In this document: piece after piece, positions 600 through 40,692 of the stretch
Layout: each line of letters starts with the position of its first letter
How positions within the stretch are numbered: position 1 is the stretch's first letter
Origin: Acytostelium subglobosum LB1
Lineage: Eukaryota > Evosea > Eumycetozoa > Acytosteliales > Acytosteliaceae
Length of the DNA: 64,000 bases
Assembly (NCBI RefSeq): GCF_000787575.1
Contig: NW_012236506.1
Location: forward strand, 376,225-440,224
Direction of reading: 5' to 3'
Made by a program: the position numbers and the translations under genes
The notes under the pieces: model-generated
Database searches by the model: none
Seen by the model: the letters and a program-made list of their open reading frames with translations, nothing else
Told to the model about the DNA's origin: nothing

Positions 600-1663
600 T
601 ATGTTTAAGTATCTATTTGTATTTGTTTTTTTGAATAGTTGAATAGTTGTGTATTTGTTAATTGATTGATTGATTGATTGGAAGTATGATTGAACTGGAT
701 AAAGTGAGTAGCAGAGGTCAAACACACACAATGTAAGGTATTATCTCAAAGTCGTTTTATGTTCACATAATGGGCCTTGAGGACCAGAATTCATTCATTG
801 TGGACCAACCACAAAACACCCCACAGGCACCATCACATTCGGTCCTACCCACCCACACACTTTTGTTGATGAATCCCAACGATCGCAGATCTGAGTGGTG
901 GCGACATCGTCTCAAACATACCCGAAATTATCCCATGGGTTGGTAAATTTGGGTACTTATTTGTAGACTTAACTTGATGTATCTATTTACATGTTATTGA
1001 TAGAGTGAGTGAATGAACTTGATCAATCAATCTATATCTTTAGTTTGGTGTTGTTGTAATGAATAATGTAACTAAGTCCATCCAGATTGGTAGTGTGGCC
1101 CTACAACGTTCGAACAGATGATGTCGGCCATCAGAGGCCATTCAACTAGTTAACAAGTTAACTTTGGTCAATGTCCACCTACATGTAGCCTCGCCTCGTG
1201 ATCACCGTGACGGACAAGTATAGTAGCATTACTTTAACATACCTTCAGCCCATCATAGGCAACACGACTCCCTCTACCTCTAGGGCAAGCCATAGCGAAT
1301 ACACTCGAGAATATGAAGGATCAATCAATCACCAACTTTAAGTTTGGTGTAGTTGTATTGTAATTAGCTTGGGAGAATGGAGGAGCAATAAAGTGATTGC
1401 AATCATTCAGCTGTGCGAATTTTGGATGGTTGGTTGTGTGTCGTGAGTGTGTTGGTTGATTGATTGTATGATTGATGGGAATGATGGCCTCGAGTAGATA
1501 GTGAACGACTTGTAAGACTAAAGGTGATTAATGTGGATGTTGTTCCTGTCTTATGCTCATTGTGGGCCATTGAAACAGAGGTTGGTAGGATGGTAGGGGA
1601 TGATTGGCGACACTGGTTAAAGTAATAGATTAACTTGATTGTTGACAACATGTTCTTTTTAGT
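600..1663. other. Gene-free interval between the BAR-like and CNBP-like genes
   Basis: No frame on either strand continues through splice-like sites or resembles a known family here. It holds TTGATTGATTGA and TGAGTGAGTGAG short repeats and the 3' flank of the minus-strand CNBP-like gene. It presumably also holds the promoter of the minus-strand BAR-like gene just upstream of 577. No RNA gene was recognised. Confidence 0.5.
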
Positions 1664-2164
1664 TTAGTTCTCGCCAGTTGCGTTGGTGCAGTCCTTGGAG
1701 ATGTGACCAAACTTGCCACAGGCGTAGCACTTCTTGTCACCGCCTCTGGAGAAGCCACCGCTTGGACGACCACCAAAGCTTCCGGTGGACTCGGATGGGC
1801 AGTTGGCCTGGATGTGACCAAAGCCACCGCAGTTGAAGCAACGCTTGGCGGCGGATGGGGCTGGGGCAGATGAGCCCTGTGGGCAGCTTCTCTGCATATG
1901 ACCGTACTGGTCGCACTTGTAGCACTTGATGTCACCACCGCTGACAACTGGCTCACGCTCGACAGTGCAGTCACGAGCGAAATGACCTGGCTGCTTGCAG
2001 TTACGGCAGGTCTCCTCCTCATTGCAGTCCATAGCCTTGTGGCCTGGCTTTTGGCATCTATATATTTGTTTGTAATTAATTAGAATCTGTATGTATATAC
2101 TATCTTATCTCAATCATGTATTCTGTGTTCCGTACCTGTAACAACGTTGAACTCTATCGGACAT
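1664..2164 (-). CDS. CNBP/Gis2-like CCHC zinc-knuckle nucleic-acid-binding protein
   Basis: Two exons, 2136-2164 and 1664-2057, give 140 residues. The first exon (MSDRVQRCYR) splits the first zinc knuckle, and joining it to ATGCCAAAAGCC restores CYRCQKPGHKAMDC. Five C-x2-C-x4-H-x4-C knuckles follow one another: CYRCQKPGHKAMDC, CRNCKQPGHFARDC, CYKCDQYGHMQRSC, CFNCGGFGHIQANC and CYACGKFGHISKDC. A Gly/Ser/Arg linker precedes the last. Animal CNBP and yeast Gis2 have seven such knuckles and bind single-stranded nucleic acid and translating mRNA; this protein has the same architecture with five. The intron is 78 bases and AT-rich. The family is certain from the motifs; the exact target is unknown. 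Confidence 0.93.
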
Positions 2165-2821
2165 TATATTATATGTTATATTATATATATTTAGCTCGCG
2201 CTATATGATTGAATGAATAGTTAGTATTGATTGTTATAATGAGGTATACCTCTATTCGATCACTCACTCTTCTCCACCTCCACCTCCTCACCTCCTCCTC
2301 CACCTCCTTCACCTCCTCCTTCATTCAATCTCCTCCTCCTCCTCACACAGCCTCCTCCAACTCCAACTCCACCAACTCCACCAATGCCGTCAAGTCAAAA
2401 CTTTCGCCAACAAACTTGAGACTGCGACCTCTCTCGTATCTCTCATCACCAACATTAACATCAATGCTGTGAATGTATAATGCTATTCTCATCTATCTAA
2501 GCATTCTTGATTAATACCAACCTGTAGTTATTATATATATATTTATGTGTTTGAAGATTATTTGATAATAAACGAAAGTCGATTTTGTTCCTCGTTATTA
2601 TTGTTGTTGGTGTTTGTTGTTGTGGGAGTGAAGGCGACGAGTCACACACTTCAACAGACCTCAACTTGAGAAAAAAAATTAAAACTTCCAACTTGAAAGG
2701 ATCTTCAAATTATTCAAAAAGGCGCGCTCTCTAAAGTACATTCACTATTAGTCGTCGATCGTAATCAAACACAACATGACATATACACATAGCAATCAAT
2801 TACATACACACACAACATACA

Positions 2822-3658
2822 ATGAATAGTGAAAGTCCATCACAACGTGAGAGTCAATTACAAAATGCAAGAGAGTCGATTGATGATGCAATGAAGGAGT
2901 TTCAAGATAAGATTGATGTTGGCAGGACTGCAAATTGGACTGTATCATCAGCAAAGCCAGGCTTTGGTATCGAACAACTACTTGATGAGAATCTATCAAC
3001 ATTCTGGCAGTATGTTGTTGTATACATCACTCAATCATTCAATCAATCAATCAATCACTCACTAACATTCGCTCACAATCACAAACAAAGGTCCGATGCA
3101 CAACAACCTCATCATATAACAATACAACTCAATAGGAGATATGAACTTGAGAACTTATTGTTGTATACTGATTTCAAAGAGGATGAGAGTTATACACCAT
3201 CACAACTATCGATAAAGGTTGGCAACAGTTATCATGATCTCGAAGAGATGATCAATACAGAGTTGGATAAACCTTCAGGTTGGATTAACATACCATTCAA
3301 TATGAATGATCAACAAAAGTATATTTCATCCATTCATTCATTCAATCATTCAATCATTCATTCAATCATACTTACGTACAACTACACATTAATAGAGTGA
3401 TCAAGGCCACAATGTTACAAATATCAATATTATCCAATCATCAAAATGGTAGAGATACTCATATAAGACATATCAAAGTGCTTGGAAAGAAGGTGTATGT
3501 TGTTGATTGAGTGAGAGGCCTCACTTAATCATTCATACATTCAATTCTAATACATACATTCACATAATAGGACATTGGAGACCAAGCTAAAGATACCAAA
3601 CTTCACTTTACATCACAACAAACAACCAGAGTTAAACTTTTATAACTCAATTAGATAA
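2822..3658 (+). CDS. anapc10: Anaphase-promoting complex subunit 10 (APC10/Doc1)
   Basis: Four exons (2822-3009, 3091-3318, 3396-3494, 3571-3658) give 200 residues. A DOC-domain jelly roll is clear: [20 protein letters not shown], then [16 protein letters not shown], then [17 protein letters not shown], then GWINIPF and [12 protein letters not shown]. The correct 5' site of intron 3 is GTATGTTG after AAGAAGGT. It was chosen because only that join ends the protein in YNSIR, the conserved C-terminal Ile-Arg tail that docks APC10 on the APC3/Cdc27 TPR subunit. In the complex APC10 helps form the D-box receptor for ubiquitination of mitotic substrates. All three introns hold CATT or CAAT tetranucleotide repeats; intron 1 has a CACTAAC branch site. 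Confidence 0.95.
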
Positions 3659-4587
3659 GATTGGTCATTCCATCCAATGGACCCACATCACGCACATCAA
3701 AAGGTAAGTTCATTCTTTGTTTTCTTATCCCGCAGATACACGTACACACTCAAATCACCACACACACGGATCTGGATGGATCATGTATCCGACAATCAAA
3801 CGACGCACATAGACTCGCACCTCGACCCACTCTTTGGACCAGAGGATGGGTTTTTTGTTCTTTCAACCAACTGCTGATTGTTTTTCGTTTGATTTTTTTT
3901 GAATTTAATTTTTGATGTTTGTAACTTCCACATGACACTAGTTTTACGCAATACATAGAGATACAAAGCGAGTAGTTGTAGTAGTTTAAAACGCAAATAT
4001 TCAATTCAATCCTGGTCCTTCATTAAATTGAATTGAATGACCATCATCAACTTGTCCAACATCCAACATTCAACTTCCAATCCTCGCATTTACATCTGTT
4101 CATTCATTCATTCAAACACACACATCCACAACCTCACCAATCATAACCAAACACACCCACATATACACACACATTCATTCATTCACATTGATTTATATTT
4201 TTTGTTTTGAAAGCAAGCACCAACAAGCGTACACTTGTGGTTCGACCACAATACTCTATTCTTCGCCAAACACATAACATTCTCCCACAAACAAACAAAT
4301 ATTTTATATATAAATACAAATACATATTTATTTATTGTTTATGTATGTTTAGAATCAATATAATTGGATAGACCAGGACATGTCCAGATACTAACAAATC
4401 AATAACAATTTAGATATACTGGATCTGATCAATATAATATTTACTTTTTTCCAAATCATCAGACACTGGAGGATTGTCTGATCAATCATATCAATCATTC
4501 AATCAATCGATTCACACTCAAACACACACACACACAAACACTGGAACACGCGGCGAATAGACAATCAATCACGTGATAGAGAGAGCA
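3659..4587. other. Gene-free interval and promoter region of the KDM5-like gene
   Basis: Nothing protein-like continues here. The stretch holds T-rich runs (about 3848-3912), CATTCATTCATT and CACACACA simple repeats, TATATAAATA-like AT-rich DNA near 4310, and a small hairpin TTGTGGTTCGACCACAA at about 4224-4240. The last 150 bases before 4588 are rich in CAATCA repeats and CACACA, as upstream of other genes in the window. Confidence 0.5.
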
Positions 4588-7390
4588 ATGGCAAAGAATA
4601 TAAAGAAGAAGAGGGATATGACGGTATGCCCAAACTGCCGTGTAAGATTCCCAACATCTTCGATTAGAACACATCGTTTGGGATGTGCCAATACACAGGA
4701 ATATATGAGGCGACGCTCGACATTGCCCGCGCCAGAGCAGCGCAAGCCACGCGCGGCAGCCATCGCAGCTGGACAAGCATTGATGGCACAGGCCAACAAC
4801 AACAAGCGAAAGTCTTCTTTGACTAGTGGCACCACCACAGCGACAATCTCACCAAAGAAGGATTCGCCAAAGAAGATAGCGACTGCATCATCATCATCGT
4901 CATCATCGCCCACTGTCATGGCAACGAGGAAGAAGACATTGGCAGCTGCGGTAGCGGCGGCTGCAGCAGCATCACCTTCAAACACACCAATCGCATTGTC
5001 AAAGAGGAAGAAGAGGGCGACGCCATCGACACCGGTGTTGGCCAAGGATGAGAGCACAAGCATGGACATTGACACTGACGAATCTGTGGTGATTGAGCGA
5101 TCAGCACGTGGTGGAAAGATGATGTCCACTCATTCAATGTCCAATGACACTCGTCTTCGTCGACTCTCATCAAAGAAGAAGTCTCCAAACACTGGATCAT
5201 CATCTTCCCCATCATCAGCATCCAAGAAGTCACCATCAAAGAACAACAAGAAGGTCACGTCATCGTCGACCGGCACTTCATTGCTATCAGAGTTCAAGGC
5301 GGCAAAGTCATGGGACAGCGAGAAGGTGCGCAATTGGGACATACAGGAGGCACCGGTGTTCTATCCAACTGTCGAGGAGTTTAGACACCCACTGGCATAC
5401 ATCGAGAAGATCCGCCCAATCGGCGAGAAGTACGGCATCTGCAAGGTCGTCCCACCGTACAAGGCCCAGCCTATCATGACACAGATCGATCCCAAGACCT
5501 TCAAGTTCAAGACCAAGCTGCAGAACATCCATCAGCTCAAGACTCGTTGGTCCGGCCCCAGCGAAGTGTTTGTGGCCGAGTTGTGCTCCTTCCTGGAGGA
5601 GCGCGGCGAGTCGATGCTCTCGTTCCCCCAGTACGACGGCCACGACCTTGACCTGTACCGTCTTTTTGTCGAGGTGAACAAGCGTGGCGGCTACTGGGAC
5701 GTCACGCGATCCAACGGTTGGCAGGAGATACTCGTCCTGCTCAAGGTGTCGGACAAGTGCTACAAGCCCATCCAGATGCTCAAGCAGCACTACAACAAGT
5801 ACCTCTATGCGTACGAGCTGGCGCGCAAGGCGCAGTATGACGAGCTGCTCAAGCAGCATCCCAACAAACAGCATCCAAGCATGATTGAGCAGGTGATATC
5901 AGAGTGCATCCAGTATGATGAGAGCAATGACGATGATGCAGACGACATGGAAGACGACCAGGAGGACTTTGGCTTCTACGAGGGCAACACATACTCGCTG
6001 GAGCACTTTGAGCAGCTGGCCTCCAACTTCTCGATGCGTTGGTTCCCCAACGGCAACAACGACCCCGACTCGGTCGAGAGCGAGTTCTGGCGAATCGTCG
6101 AGAACGGCGATGAGAATGTGCAGGTTCACTATGGCAGCGATCTTGACGTGCGCACTCACGGCAGCGGCTTCGAGCGCGTCAAGGACTTTGACCCCAACAA
6201 CGAGGAGACACACCCCAAGGAGCATTGGAACCTCAACACGTTGCCCAAGATGAAGCGGTCCGTGTTCTCTCATCTGACCGACCCAGTGTCGGGTGTCACT
6301 GACCCAATGATGTACGTTGGTATGCTCTTCTCCTCGTTCTGTTGGCACAATGAGGACAACTACCTCTACTCGATCAACTACATGCACACAGGCACATACA
6401 AGACCTGGTATGGCGTGGCTGGCGATCAGTCCGAGGTGTTTGAGCGTGCCATGCAAGAGTCCCTGCCTAAACTCTTTAGCAAGACGCCCAACCTCCTGTC
6501 CATGCTTATCACAATGATGTCGCCCGCTGCACTCAAAGAGTCCAAGGTGCCCGTGTGCAGGACGCTACAGAGCCCTGGCGACTTTATCATCACATTCCCC
6601 CAGGCATACCATGCAGGCTTCTCGCATGGCTTCACGGTGGCCGAGGCCGTGAACTTTGCCCCAGCCGACTGGCTGCCGTATGGCGTCAAGTCCACCGAAC
6701 ACTACCAGGCGGTGCACAGGACAAACGTCTTTTGTCTTGAGCAGCTGATGATGGCGCTGTCCAAGCGCGCACCATCGCCAGAGCTCATCAAGTGGCTGCT
6801 GCCCTGTCTCGAGAAGATATACGCGAACGAGAAGACTGCCCGAGCGGCCCTGATCGCCAAGGGCTGCGTGAACTGAGCAGTTGATACAGAACATCAGCGA
6901 GATGGAGCACATCGACAAGATCAAGCAGTGCTCTGTGTGCAAGGCCGACTGTTACCTCTCCTACATACATTGCACGCGCTGCAGCAAAGACAGCGACGGC
7001 AGCAGCAACGACGATGTGCAGTGTCTCAAGCACGAGTGTACGTGTGCCACCAAGCACAAAGCGATCAAGGTGAACAAGCTGTTGCCCGACATCGAGGCCA
7101 CCATTGGCAAGCTGAGAGAGAAGCTGGCCGCCGCTGGCAAGGCGCTGGCTGTAGCCACATCATCAACAACATCAACATCATCAACCACCCTGTACAAATT
7201 CCCCTATCCATCCTCCAACCAGACGTCACCGACGCCTTCCTTTTCACTCATCTTCTCCAAGAACAGGAAGAACAAGGCCAAGGCCATTGCCACGACCACC
7301 ACCACAACAACCACCACTACCACAACCACAACAACAACGACGACAATGACCATACCTGGGTTCAGTGATGGTCAACCTATCGAGATATAA
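4588..7390 (+). CDS. KDM5-type histone H3K4 demethylase (JmjN-ARID-JmjC-C5HC2), with a frame change before the zinc finger
   Basis: The start is the ATG at 4588 (MAKNIKKKRDMTVCPNC). The intronless frame to 6876 gives 762 residues: a C-x2-C...H...C finger (about 15-35), a low-complexity basic Ala/Ser/Lys region (about 55-240), JmjN (about 254-300), ARID (about 327-411) and JmjC (about 570-695). Iron ligands are intact (CWHNED and the His of AYHAGFSHG), as is the 2-oxoglutarate lysine in GTYKTWYG. The frame stops at TGA 6874-6876. The next frame, open from 6872 to 7390, encodes the C5HC2 zinc finger that normally follows JmjC (CSVCKADCYLSYIHCTRC, later CLKHECTC), then a coil, a poly-Thr run and IPGFSDGQPIEI. 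No intron fits the junction. Known relatives remove methyl groups from H3K4 in the nucleus. The break may be a sequencing indel, a real split or recoding. Confidence 0.9.
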
Positions 7391-36738: not shown

Positions 36739-38944
36739 ATGTTGATCCTTATCAAATCACCAACAATCACATTCAGTTTGGATGTTCAACCAACAGATGA
36801 TGTCCAGGTACTCTATAATAAGGTTGCCGAGAGGACAGAGTATAAGATCTTCCAATTCGATCTATTGTACGCTGGTGAGAAGATTGAGATTGGAAACCCT
36901 GTCTCTGGCACTGGTATCAAGAAGGAGACCACCGTCCACATGTTGGTAATCAAAGAGTTAAAGTTTGTAGTACTCTACAAGAACATGGAACATCCAGTAT
37001 CTGTTCCAAACAATGATGGCCTCACTATTGCTACTCTCATGGCGTAAGTATCATCTATTCAATCATTCAATCATTCAACCAAAATGATCACACTTGCTCA
37101 CCTGGAATCATTCCATCACACACTTAATCATACAGGCAAATCAAGAATATGTTGACAACTAGTATTCCAGAGTTGGCAACTCATGATATTGTGTTGAAGA
37201 AGGCTGGTAGTCCAACTGCTTTGGTCAAGCATTCATCACTTCATACCACTTTGGCAAACATGGAGGTGTTGGAGATGGAGTTGACTGAGCGTCCAAAGGT
37301 AGAGACATACAATGCACCAGCTGCTGCTGATGAGCAATTCGATCAGGATGCATTGTTGAGCAGTTTTGTCGAGTCGTCCATATCATCAGATGTCGAGATC
37401 GTCTTTTGTTTCGATACCACTGGCTCAATGTCATCGATCATCCAGAACGTCAGATCACAGGTCGAGAAGACTGTCAGTCGTCTGATGAAGGACATCCCCA
37501 ACATCCGTATTGGTATCATGGGTTTGGGTGACTATTGTGATGCCTCCAAGGTGTTGACCACATTGGACCTTTCACAGAACTTGGACGAGTTGGTACAGTT
37601 CATCAAGAATGTCCCGGGCACTGGCGGTGGTGACGCCCCAGAGGCATATGAATGGGCACTCAAGAAGGCCAAGGAGCTCACCTGGTCAACACACACATCC
37701 AAGGCATTCGTTATGATTGGTGATGCCAATCCACACGAGCCATCACACACTAACTTGTCCATCAACTGGTTGGAGGAATGTGTAAGTATTCTTCATCAAT
37801 CAATCACTCAAGTGATCGGTCACTGACACTCACTCAATCAATCAATCATACTTAGGATGAACTGTTTGACATGGGAGTCAAGATATATGGTGTCAAGGCA
37901 TTGGGAAACTCACCATTCTATGAGGAGATTGCAAAGAGAACTGGAGGTGTATGCATCAACTTTAAGAACTTCTCATTCATCACTGAGATGTTCTTGGCCA
38001 TTTGTTACCGTGAGGCTTCAAAGGAGAAGTTCAAGAAGTTCGAATCGGAATTGGCCACTCAAACTCAGAATGGTGACATGTCATCAATCATGGCCGACTT
38101 GAACAAGGAGAACTTTGAGGTCGTCGTCGCTGATTCCAAGACCGAGACACCAGCTGCAACCGAGACCACAACGACCACCTCGACTACCACCACTGCATCC
38201 CCAGACACTGCCCCCACTGGTGATATCACCTCACTTGCACCAAAGAAGGATGTTGTGGTCAAGGTCAGAGGAAAGCCAACCGCAATGAGAAGCAATGAGG
38301 GCTGGTTCAACCATGACAGGGACCATGCAACCAAGCCAACATACTACTTCCAAGTTGATTTGGGCTACTTCACCACACAGTCTGATGGCGCCGGAACATA
38401 TGTCTCCAAGGATGTTGTCCCAGCTTCATACACTCACACTGATGGCACTGTCTCACGCTCAATGATGGACACTTTGTTCATTGGCTCATACTTTGGTGGT
38501 GCACGCCCCAAGACCAAGAAGAACATGGTAGTCTCAATCGTTGGTGACACGATGATTGGAAAGTCAACCTTTGTCGAGGCCATCAACAATGGATCAATGG
38601 GCAAGGTCAAGTTGCAGGAGCAGACCACACCCTACAATGCAGTGTCCCTCTCCAACATTGCAGCATATGGTGTGTGCTTTGATGTCACCAACATGAATAG
38701 TTTATCGAGGGTGCAATCCTATGTGAACCGCATCAAGAGCATCGACCCAAAGGCAAAGATATTCATCGTTGCTCTCAAGACTGACCTGGCCGACCCATCT
38801 GCATTCCCCGAGGTGCCACCTGCCGTCACTGAATGCTACAACGTTCACCACTTCTCACGTATCGCCAGCAAGGAGGAGATGAAATCATTGATCTATGGCA
38901 TCAAGTCCGAGGTTATGAGAACTGCCTCCTGTTCAATCATGTAA
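36739..38944 (+). CDS. Ubiquitin-like + vWA + degenerate Ras-like GTPase fusion with a CaaX end
   Basis: Exons 36739-37043, 37136-37781 and 37856-38944 give 679 residues. Residues 1-75 look ubiquitin-like (MLILIKSPTITFSLDVQPTD, then FQFDLLYAGEKIEIGN). A vWA domain spans about 186-375, with an intact MIDAS start DTTGSMS and later GTGGGDAPEAYEWAL and GDANPHEP. A Thr/Pro-rich linker follows. From about 540 a Ras/Rab-like segment appears: VVSIVGDTMIGKSTFVEAIN (a P-loop), then YGVCFDVTNMNSLSRVQSYV and KAKIFIVALKTDLADPSAFP. The stretch between P-loop and FDVTN is about 45 residues, without a DTAGQ motif, and the usual NKxD reads LKTD. The end is CSIM, a prenylation-type CaaX box. Likely a membrane-tethered adaptor with a pseudo-GTPase; function unknown. 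Confidence 0.9.
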
Positions 38945-39157: not shown

Positions 39158-40692
39158 GCAGTTGATATATGTTGCTTCATTTTATGTTGTAAAAGGCTAT
39201 ACTCTAATAGATTGTCAATTGTACGACCACAAGAAACATGTGAATGTCTTCACAATCATACATTCAACAACAACAACTTCTCTATCCTTCATCGTTGCAA
39301 TCCTAATAGTATGTATTCATTCATTCATTCATTCATTCATTCTTATTTTAACATTCAATCTATCATTCATTCATTCATTCATTCATTCATTCGATCATTC
39401 AATCAAACAAAGACAAGATAATAGAAAGATATGAAGTTGAAGGACAACCATATATACTTGTTGGTAGAGATCGATCACGAGCAGTCTTTAAGAAAGAACA
39501 ATCGTTTGTTACGGTCACATTACTGCCACAGGTCACATCGATACACTTTGATGAATCATCAAAGTTTGACCAACTGATCATTCCTGGTATCATCCCGGAA
39601 GGTATCACTGAGATTACATTCAATGATAGGTTCAATCAACCACTACAACCTGGTTCAATACCTGCGACTGTAACATCATTGTCACTTGGCAGTTCATACA
39701 ATCATAAGATTGAGCAAGGTATCATCCCATCGTCAGTCACTGAACTTTGTCTAGGTTACACCGATCATTTCGAGCCAGGAGCACTACCAGATTCAATCAA
39801 ATCATTACACTCTGAAGGTTTCAATAATCAGTTACTTGTTAATGCGTTGCCCAAATCGTTAACAGTGTTGGAACTAAAGAGGTTCGATATGCCTTTATCA
39901 CCAGGAGTGTTACCGCACTCCCTAACCTCAATCCGAATGGAATACTTCGAGCAGGACATAGATACAGATGTACTACCATCACAACTCAGAACTCTCAAGT
40001 TGGAGTACTTCGACAAAGTTCTACGACCTTCTGTCCTCCCCGACTCACTTACCAAGCTCAAGCTTGGATATGGATTCAACTCCAAGATTAATCCTGGAGT
40101 TTTGTCAAGATCATTGCGATACTTGACATTTGGAGAGAACTTCAACAAGAAATTGAAAACCGGTGTACTGCCCTCCTCCCTTGTATCGTTGAAGCTTAGA
40201 GGTGTGTACAACAAACCTATGTACCAATCAGTCCTCCCTCCATCTCTTACCCACTTGGAGCTAGGTCACAAATTCTATCAACCAACCGACCATGATTGTA
40301 TTCCATTATCTCTAACATCATTGGCATACTCTAATAATCTGTTCATTTGTACTACTTCAAGTACCTTCATATTCTGTCGTATACAACGTGTGACTATGAA
40401 GTCAGAAGTTAAGTATCACCTACCATTACTACCTCGTAATGAATGGTTCAATGGACAAATTCGAACATTGGTCTTGACATATTACCCAAGCTTCAGCTAT
40501 TCATTAAGACAAGATGCTATAAGACAATATTTGAACTCTGGTATTGCCAACATCACACTTGGAGACTTTGGAAGTCTTTGCAGAATTGATGACAAACATT
40601 TAATTTTTTCAATAATCACAGCAAACTCTGAACAAAGAATATACATTACAACCAAAGACAATCTACTACTTGAGAACTTAATTAACAAATAA
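39068..40692 (+). CDS. FNIP-repeat protein (dispersed paralogue)
   Basis: Exons 39068-39308 and 39425-40692 give 502 residues. Exon 1 encodes MLDKLPIILLQHVVNSL, a Gln run and CCFILCCKRLYSNRLSIV, an F-box-like start. Exon 2 opens KRYEVEGQPYILVGRDRS and then carries about ten FNIP-type repeats such as LPDSLTKLKLGYGFNSKINP, LPSSLVSLKLRGVYNKPMYQ and LPPSLTHLELGHKFYQPTDH. The C-terminal region is divergent. The intron (39309-39424) consists largely of CATT repeats and ends ATAATAG. It sits alone, 25 kb from the FNIP array. Start and intron position resemble the gene at 12179, which suggests a shared ancestral structure. Confidence 0.9.

Follow-up and report, generated by a model that had tools for sequence, protein, structure and literature searches.

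A protein of Acytostelium subglobosum joining ubiquitin-like, vWA and putative pseudo-GTPase domains to a CaaX box

In this analysis, we examine a gene of Acytostelium subglobosum LB1 whose predicted product joins a ubiquitin-like (UBL) domain, a von Willebrand factor type A (vWA) domain and a small-GTPase-like domain that ends in a CaaX box. The gene lies in a 64,000-nucleotide stretch of DNA, hereafter the window (NCBI RefSeq assembly GCF_000787575.1, contig NW_012236506.1, positions 376,225 to 440,224 of the forward strand). We describe its structure, the ancestry and altered motifs of its C-terminal domain and its relatives in the same genome, and we consider what such a protein might do.

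Gene structure and domain order

The gene occupies positions 36739-38944 of the window on the forward strand, and its three exons join into 2040 nt encoding 679 amino acids and a stop codon (Table 1). Both introns begin with GTAAGT and end in CAG or TAG, and the two-intron model, predicted from such splice signals and from paralogs, places the vWA tail, the linker and the GTPase-like domain in a single open exon of 362 codons. Barring a hidden intron, the vWA and GTPase-like domains therefore belong together; in a paralog on contig C47 they likewise share one unbroken frame. Moreover, the fusion is no assembly accident, since the UBL-vWA order recurs in five paralogs of the same genome, three of them with the C-terminal domain. 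The first-pass annotation of this DNA had proposed a 679-residue protein with UBL, vWA, Ras-like and CaaX parts, and both the three-exon model and Pfam agree with it: the domain identity of each third exceeds its Pfam cut-off, and the motifs DTTGSMS (195-201), GDTMIGKS (547-554), FDVTN (592-596), LKTD (624-627) and CSIM (676-679) lie where they had been placed.

Table 1. Features of the UBL-vWA-GTPase-like gene, in window coordinates
Feature	Position	Strand	Basis
Exon 1: UBL (residues 3-70) and beginning of conserved region without known fold	36739..37043	+	Pfam, splice sites
Intron 1 (GT..AG)	37044..37135	+	Splice signals, paralog models
Exon 2: conserved region to residue 155 and most of vWA	37136..37781	+	Pfam VWA_4
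Intron 2 (GT..AG)	37782..37855	+	Splice signals; matching-place intron in C43 and C47 models
Exon 3 (whole)	37856..38944	+	Splice site, open frame to stop
Exon 3, first part: vWA end (to residue 360)	37856..37984	+	Pfam VWA match 190-360
Short Trp-containing module (about residues 449-497)	38249..38395	+	Family alignment
Small-GTPase-like domain (541-675) without switch I / DxxG	38525..38929	+	Pfam, profile searches, hhalign
CaaX box CSIM, adjoining the stop codon (38942-38944)	38930..38941	+	Translation; CSLM and CSIM in two paralogs

Ancestry of the C-terminal domain

The C-terminal domain is, on grounds of homology, a derivative of the Ras superfamily. Pfam Ras matches residues 572-631 of the window protein at 24.2 bits, and at 30.3 bits when the C-terminal 139 residues are searched alone (cut-off 21.6); the cut-off is exceeded by two of the four copies of the domain, those of the window and C47 (paralogs are named here by contig, C42, C43, C46, C47, C53, C54 and C56 being contig labels). 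The match covers only positions 59-119 of the 162 in the Ras profile, and the P-loop is linked to the Ras homology not by Pfam but by a profile-profile alignment of the four paralogs. With these 139 C-terminal residues as the only query, a search of solved structures gave nothing better than E 0.037 (Rab3). A profile of the four copies matched 770 distinct sequences among solved-structure chains at E<=1, of which the best 60 were all small GTPases (Miro, Rab, Rho/Rac, Ran, EhRabX3), with Miro (E 3.2e-9) and Rab6 (E 3e-8) at the top. Furthermore, hhalign aligned this profile with a set of four Ras-family proteins from the same genome, including a near-identical pair, at a probability of 97% (E 6.9e-11, score 67.4), over 93 columns that run from the P-loop to G4 with both in register; as controls, 50 column shuffles gave no score above 20.3 and the reversed alignment scored 11.1. 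One could instead take the domain for some other P-loop or Rossmann-like fold, not derived from a GTPase, as the partial Pfam match and the poor AlphaFold model might suggest, but the best 60 profile matches and the in-register alignment of P-loop and G4 make this very improbable.

Loss of GTPase motifs and the CaaX box

The P-loop (G1) of the window domain reads GDTMIGKS and follows the pattern GxxxxGK[ST]. Both the switch I threonine (G2) and DxxG (G3) are missing, and G4 reads LKTD in place of [NT]KxD; for these reasons the domain is, judged by its motifs, not a functional small GTPase. Every one of the four copies lacks this same switch I / DxxG stretch. The distance between the beginnings of G1 and G4 is 77, 77, 79 and 79 residues in them and 106-110 in the four Ras proteins encoded by the same genome, making the copies 27-33 residues shorter; by inspection of the alignment, none of them has a DxxG on the way from the P-loop to the FDVTN strand. 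G4 is LKSD in the three paralogs; Leu takes the place of its Asn throughout, and all four copies agree in the Leu, Lys and Asp of LKxD. The missing segment, the LKTD and the CaaX box, which the first-pass annotation had read from the window gene, hold up and prove to be traits of a family with four copies of the domain.

C56 has lost the P-loop (GSIHIGFA), which the remaining three keep as GxxxxGK[ST]T, and it alone has a clear G5 motif, ECSSNNK, the candidate G5 stretch of the window protein being FSRIAS (650-655). At the C terminus, where the window protein's CSIM conforms to C-a-a-X, the three copies that keep the P-loop terminate in CSIM, CSLM and CSIM, whereas C56 ends in KKYL, without a CaaX box. 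P-loop and CaaX box go together among the four copies, four genes being too few for statistics. Under the CaaX rule, Met in the X position directs farnesylation.

These motifs also bear on the possibility that GTP or GDP still binds tightly to the domain, which would then act as a nucleotide-locked pseudoGTPase or a nucleotide sensor, a reading that overlaps the membrane-adaptor role favored below and differs from it solely in the job of the domain. Such binding would agree with the P-loop being kept in three copies and lost only in the one that also lacks the CaaX box, with the invariant Leu, Lys and Asp of LKxD and, perhaps, with a residual G5 serine. Yet the switch I threonine and DxxG, which supply the contacts to Mg and the gamma phosphate, are absent, and the Asn of G4 is Leu in all four copies, leaving tight nucleotide binding a serious candidate somewhat short of an even chance.

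Two related large proteins elsewhere in the genome (L036:1643-4105 on C43 and L037:1985-4297 on C41) match the second half of the Ras domain at 36.0 and 37.7 bits, with no Pfam match for the P-loop half and with LKRD or LQRD replacing NKxD. Their VPS9 matches fall under the cut-off (21.8 and 25.0 against 27). On the pattern of these matches, they possibly form a second group of pseudo-GTPases in this genome.

A paralog family in the same genome

A tblastn search with the window protein in its own genome (30.7 Mb, 56 contigs) retrieved another five genes in which a UBL precedes a vWA domain, located on C43, C42, C46, C47 and C56; C53 and C54 gave weaker vWA matches, which were left out of the count. 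A GC content of 43-46% agrees with the 55.0% A+T published for Acytostelium subglobosum (31 Mb; 371 contigs in 106 supercontigs in the 2015 assembly), the three other dictyostelids with a value in that table having 66-78% A+T (PMC4334915). By this homology the family numbers at least six paralogs and is expanded within the genome. Paralog gene models, drawn by eye from splice signals and alignment, place intron 1 at the identical position and in the identical phase in all six genes. VWA_4 exceeds its cut-off in all five paralogs and ubiquitin in four, C43 scoring 23.0 bits against 25.4.

The GTPase-like domain is present in three of the five (C47, C46 and C56), which share 17-38% with the window's domain. 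C43, the closest paralog (77% in vWA), ends at residue 481, right after the Trp module, with no continuation in the roughly 220 bases read past its stop and no tblastn match of the GTPase-like domain there. In place of that domain, C42 (L030, reverse strand, 1345-4658 of the reversed stretch) has a pair of EF-hands (47.4 bits) and, at its C terminus, a WWE domain (31.8 bits), a type known from ubiquitin ligases and PARPs. In C46 (L031, reverse strand, about 2660-2760 of the reversed stretch), the frame changes in the linker between vWA and the GTPase-like domain, which may reflect an unrecognized short intron, a mistake in the assembly or a disrupted gene.

Variation of this kind could mean that the domain is a relic in decay, the family having spread by duplication while its tail drifted and served at most as the carrier of a CaaX box. 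The missing domain of C43, the loss of both P-loop and CaaX box in C56 and the frame break ahead of the domain in C46 would all suit such decay, but the frames are open, the shortening is identical in all four copies and the P-loop is kept in three. Codon changes speak against it as well: over 139 codons, the window and C47 domains differ at 68, 52 and 87 first, second and third positions, and at 14 of 20 fourfold sites. Silent sites have changed more than second positions, as expected for a maintained protein, and we give no ratio of non-synonymous to synonymous substitution because silent change is close to saturation. On balance, we consider a mere relic unlikely.

The ubiquitin-like and vWA domains and their relatives

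Pfam ubiquitin matches residues 3-70 at 29.6 bits in the whole protein and 33.9 bits in exon 1 alone (cut-off 25.4), and ubiquitins are among the best 60 of the 285 matches of the whole protein to solved structures, a weak single-sequence search. In an alignment read by eye, the positions of ubiquitin I44, H68 and V70 correspond to L43, H67 and L69 of the window protein, so that the first and third stay hydrophobic and the His is retained, and that of L8 corresponds to Pro. Residues 70-75 read VIKELK, and as the chain runs on past the domain without a di-glycine processing site, the UBL is not a conjugatable ubiquitin. Beyond it, region 73-155 is conserved across all six family members. Its pattern resembles a second UBL by eye, a candidate that we dropped: a six-member profile gave three matches to solved structures at E<=10, none of them a ubiquitin, and its hhalign score against the first UBL was 9.2, while 100 shuffles reached as much as 16.2.

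The vWA domain is matched by Pfam VWA_4 at 190-307 (43.4 bits, or 43.5 bits on exon 2 alone; cut-off 27) and by VWA at 190-360 (35.9 bits; cut-off 23.8). A metal-ion-dependent adhesion site (MIDAS) consists of DxTxS or DxSxS, then Thr, then Asp, and its residues are complete by position (D195-T197-S199, T264 and D298), falling within the exon 2 motifs DTTGSMS, TGGGD (264-268) and GDANPH (297-302). Despite this recognition by Pfam, a family vWA profile found a single match among solved structures at E<=0.1, an asparaginase and not a vWA protein.

Relatives of the family vWA domain also occur in viruses. Viral contigs hold 71 of them (L040-L110), with at most 46% identity and 43 of the 71 on contigs of at least 100 kb, and matches appear in 37 phage records (best 38.7%), including crAss-like phages and a 595 kb phage. 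At E<=0.1, none of the 71 loci matches the family profiles of the UBL, region 73-155, the GTPase-like domain or the Trp module. Giant viruses were considered as a source of these relatives and dropped, since a PHROG match, obtained for one protein out of three, and the 37 phage records point to phages for some at least. A check for bacterial origin of the vWA domain, made with two narrow patterns in one genome-contig scan, gave one weak relative (28%).

By family alignment, the Trp module is also found in C43, C42, C47 and C46, and not in C56. It has no known fold: its profile gave 11 matches to solved structures at E<=10, none convincing, five being designed tetratricopeptide repeat (TPR) proteins aligned through a motif of 11-12 residues and the other six having E 0.31 or worse. 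A more distant vWA protein (L034, C53:1056000-1060500) contains a stretch, FSWWDISNDIDPNPTFLWNERTGLFEQ, that resembles the Trp module; tblastn of the window protein found no ubiquitin-like match in it.

Downstream of the gene, at 39352-40692 of the window, lies an FNIP-repeat protein (Pfam 230 bits), of a kind typical of dictyostelids.

Proposed role

Most likely, with a probability of roughly 60%, the window protein is a membrane-anchored, farnesylated adaptor with a non-cycling pseudo-GTPase domain, one member of a genome-expanded family. With switch I and DxxG absent, the domain should not cycle; retaining the P-loop and, in G4, Lys and Asp, it may yet be able to hold nucleotide; and the CaaX tail beside a non-cycling domain suggests a lipid-anchored platform that carries a UBL/vWA receptor at the membrane. 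Farnesylation of CSIM would hold the protein there, the GTPase-like domain would serve as a nucleotide-locked or purely structural platform beside the lipid, and the UBL and vWA domains would face the cytosol, where they could recruit ubiquitin-receptor and metal-dependent ligand partners to the membrane. A prenylated membrane adaptor with a structural or nucleotide-sensing GTPase remnant fits these sequences, from which we infer its prenylation, nucleotide state, membrane location and partners.

Several observations weigh against this proposal. Pfam Ras stays under its cut-off of 21.6 in C46 (17.4 bits) and C56 (17.5 bits). Taken copy by copy, the hhalign comparison with Ras proteins yields scores of 34.0, 51.9, 37.9 and 29.3, at probabilities of just 69, 95, 83 and 39%. 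A tblastn search with the window's domain finds C47 (2e-19) and C46 (6e-4) and does not find C56 at E<=10; given this and its Pfam score, the membership of C56 rests on the family alignment. Structure prediction, through which the first-pass annotation would have had the GTPase fold checked, did not confirm it: AlphaFold models made without an alignment were poor, with a mean predicted local distance difference test (pLDDT) score of 41.9 for the C-terminal domain and 40.8 for exon 1, and Foldseek, given the C-terminal model, returned 768 matches at E<=10, none of them reaching E<=0.001. Judged by title, about 41 of the 50 weak matches listed belong to the Ras superfamily; neither model nor matches were used as evidence. 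The domain is dispensable in one copy, as C43 stops before it. Finally, the PF00432 prenyltransferase-type matches at three places in the genome, in six matched pieces, are in favor of the proposal, yet since this family spans several enzymes, other prenyltransferases and terpene cyclases among them, they do not establish the farnesyltransferase itself.

A more specific version of the adaptor proposal can be put forward tentatively, as one that we would sooner doubt than assert: a switch-less, nucleotide-holding pseudo-GTPase would be the farnesylated membrane anchor of the UBL/vWA receptor, with P-loop and lipid tail kept or lost jointly, giving a dictyostelid family that provides the ubiquitin system with a fixed, non-cycling address label. 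If true, this would illustrate how a Ras-type domain can be used after its switching is lost, four times in one amoeba with the same segment gone and three times with a lipid-anchor motif, and it would tie a UBL and vWA module to membranes. A selection-free protocol based on clustered regularly interspaced short palindromic repeats (CRISPR) is reported to have been tried in several dictyostelids, with Acytostelium subglobosum among the named species (PMC13046832), so the idea may be directly testable. Among the titles and abstract openings of open-licence papers that we searched, the UBL-vWA-GTPase-like order was not named, and the main text of the Acytostelium genome paper does not contain the words 'von Willebrand', 'ubiquitin' or 'GTPase' (PMC4334915).

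Comparison with known systems

The vWA part of the family resembles other VWA_4 (PF25106) domains, those of phage proteins included, with which it has the motifs FDTTGSM, GDYCD and GGDxxE in common at no more than 46% identity (viral contigs); the viral copies carry their own C-terminal region. Dictyostelium VwkA is likewise described as a dictyostelid vWA protein, but it carries an alpha-kinase domain. On the GTPase side, the best match of the four-copy profile is Miro, a mitochondrial Rho GTPase, whose second matched GTPase reads AAKSD, a G4 that is likewise without Asn. Miro has two GTPase domains, EF-hands and a transmembrane tail, and is not known to have a UBL or vWA domain. EhRabX3 of Entamoeba is also among the profile matches (E 4.3e-6), and we know of no UBL or vWA domain in it.

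Relatively few pseudo-GTPases are described as known, and they are defined as classes i, ii and iii by nucleotide binding and hydrolysis (PMC5593906). The window protein would behave like a pseudoGTPase adaptor, its motif loss being observed directly and its fold assigned by sequence homology. A close likeness is to pG1 and pG2 of p190RhoGAP, in that a Ras-superfamily domain sits within a multidomain protein with switch I deleted, through an 11-residue deletion in pG1, and several G motifs gone (PMC5593906). Pfam finds no FF or RhoGAP domain in the window protein. Moreover, all five G motifs are degraded in pG1 (PMC5593906), whereas the window family has kept the P-loop and added a CaaX box.
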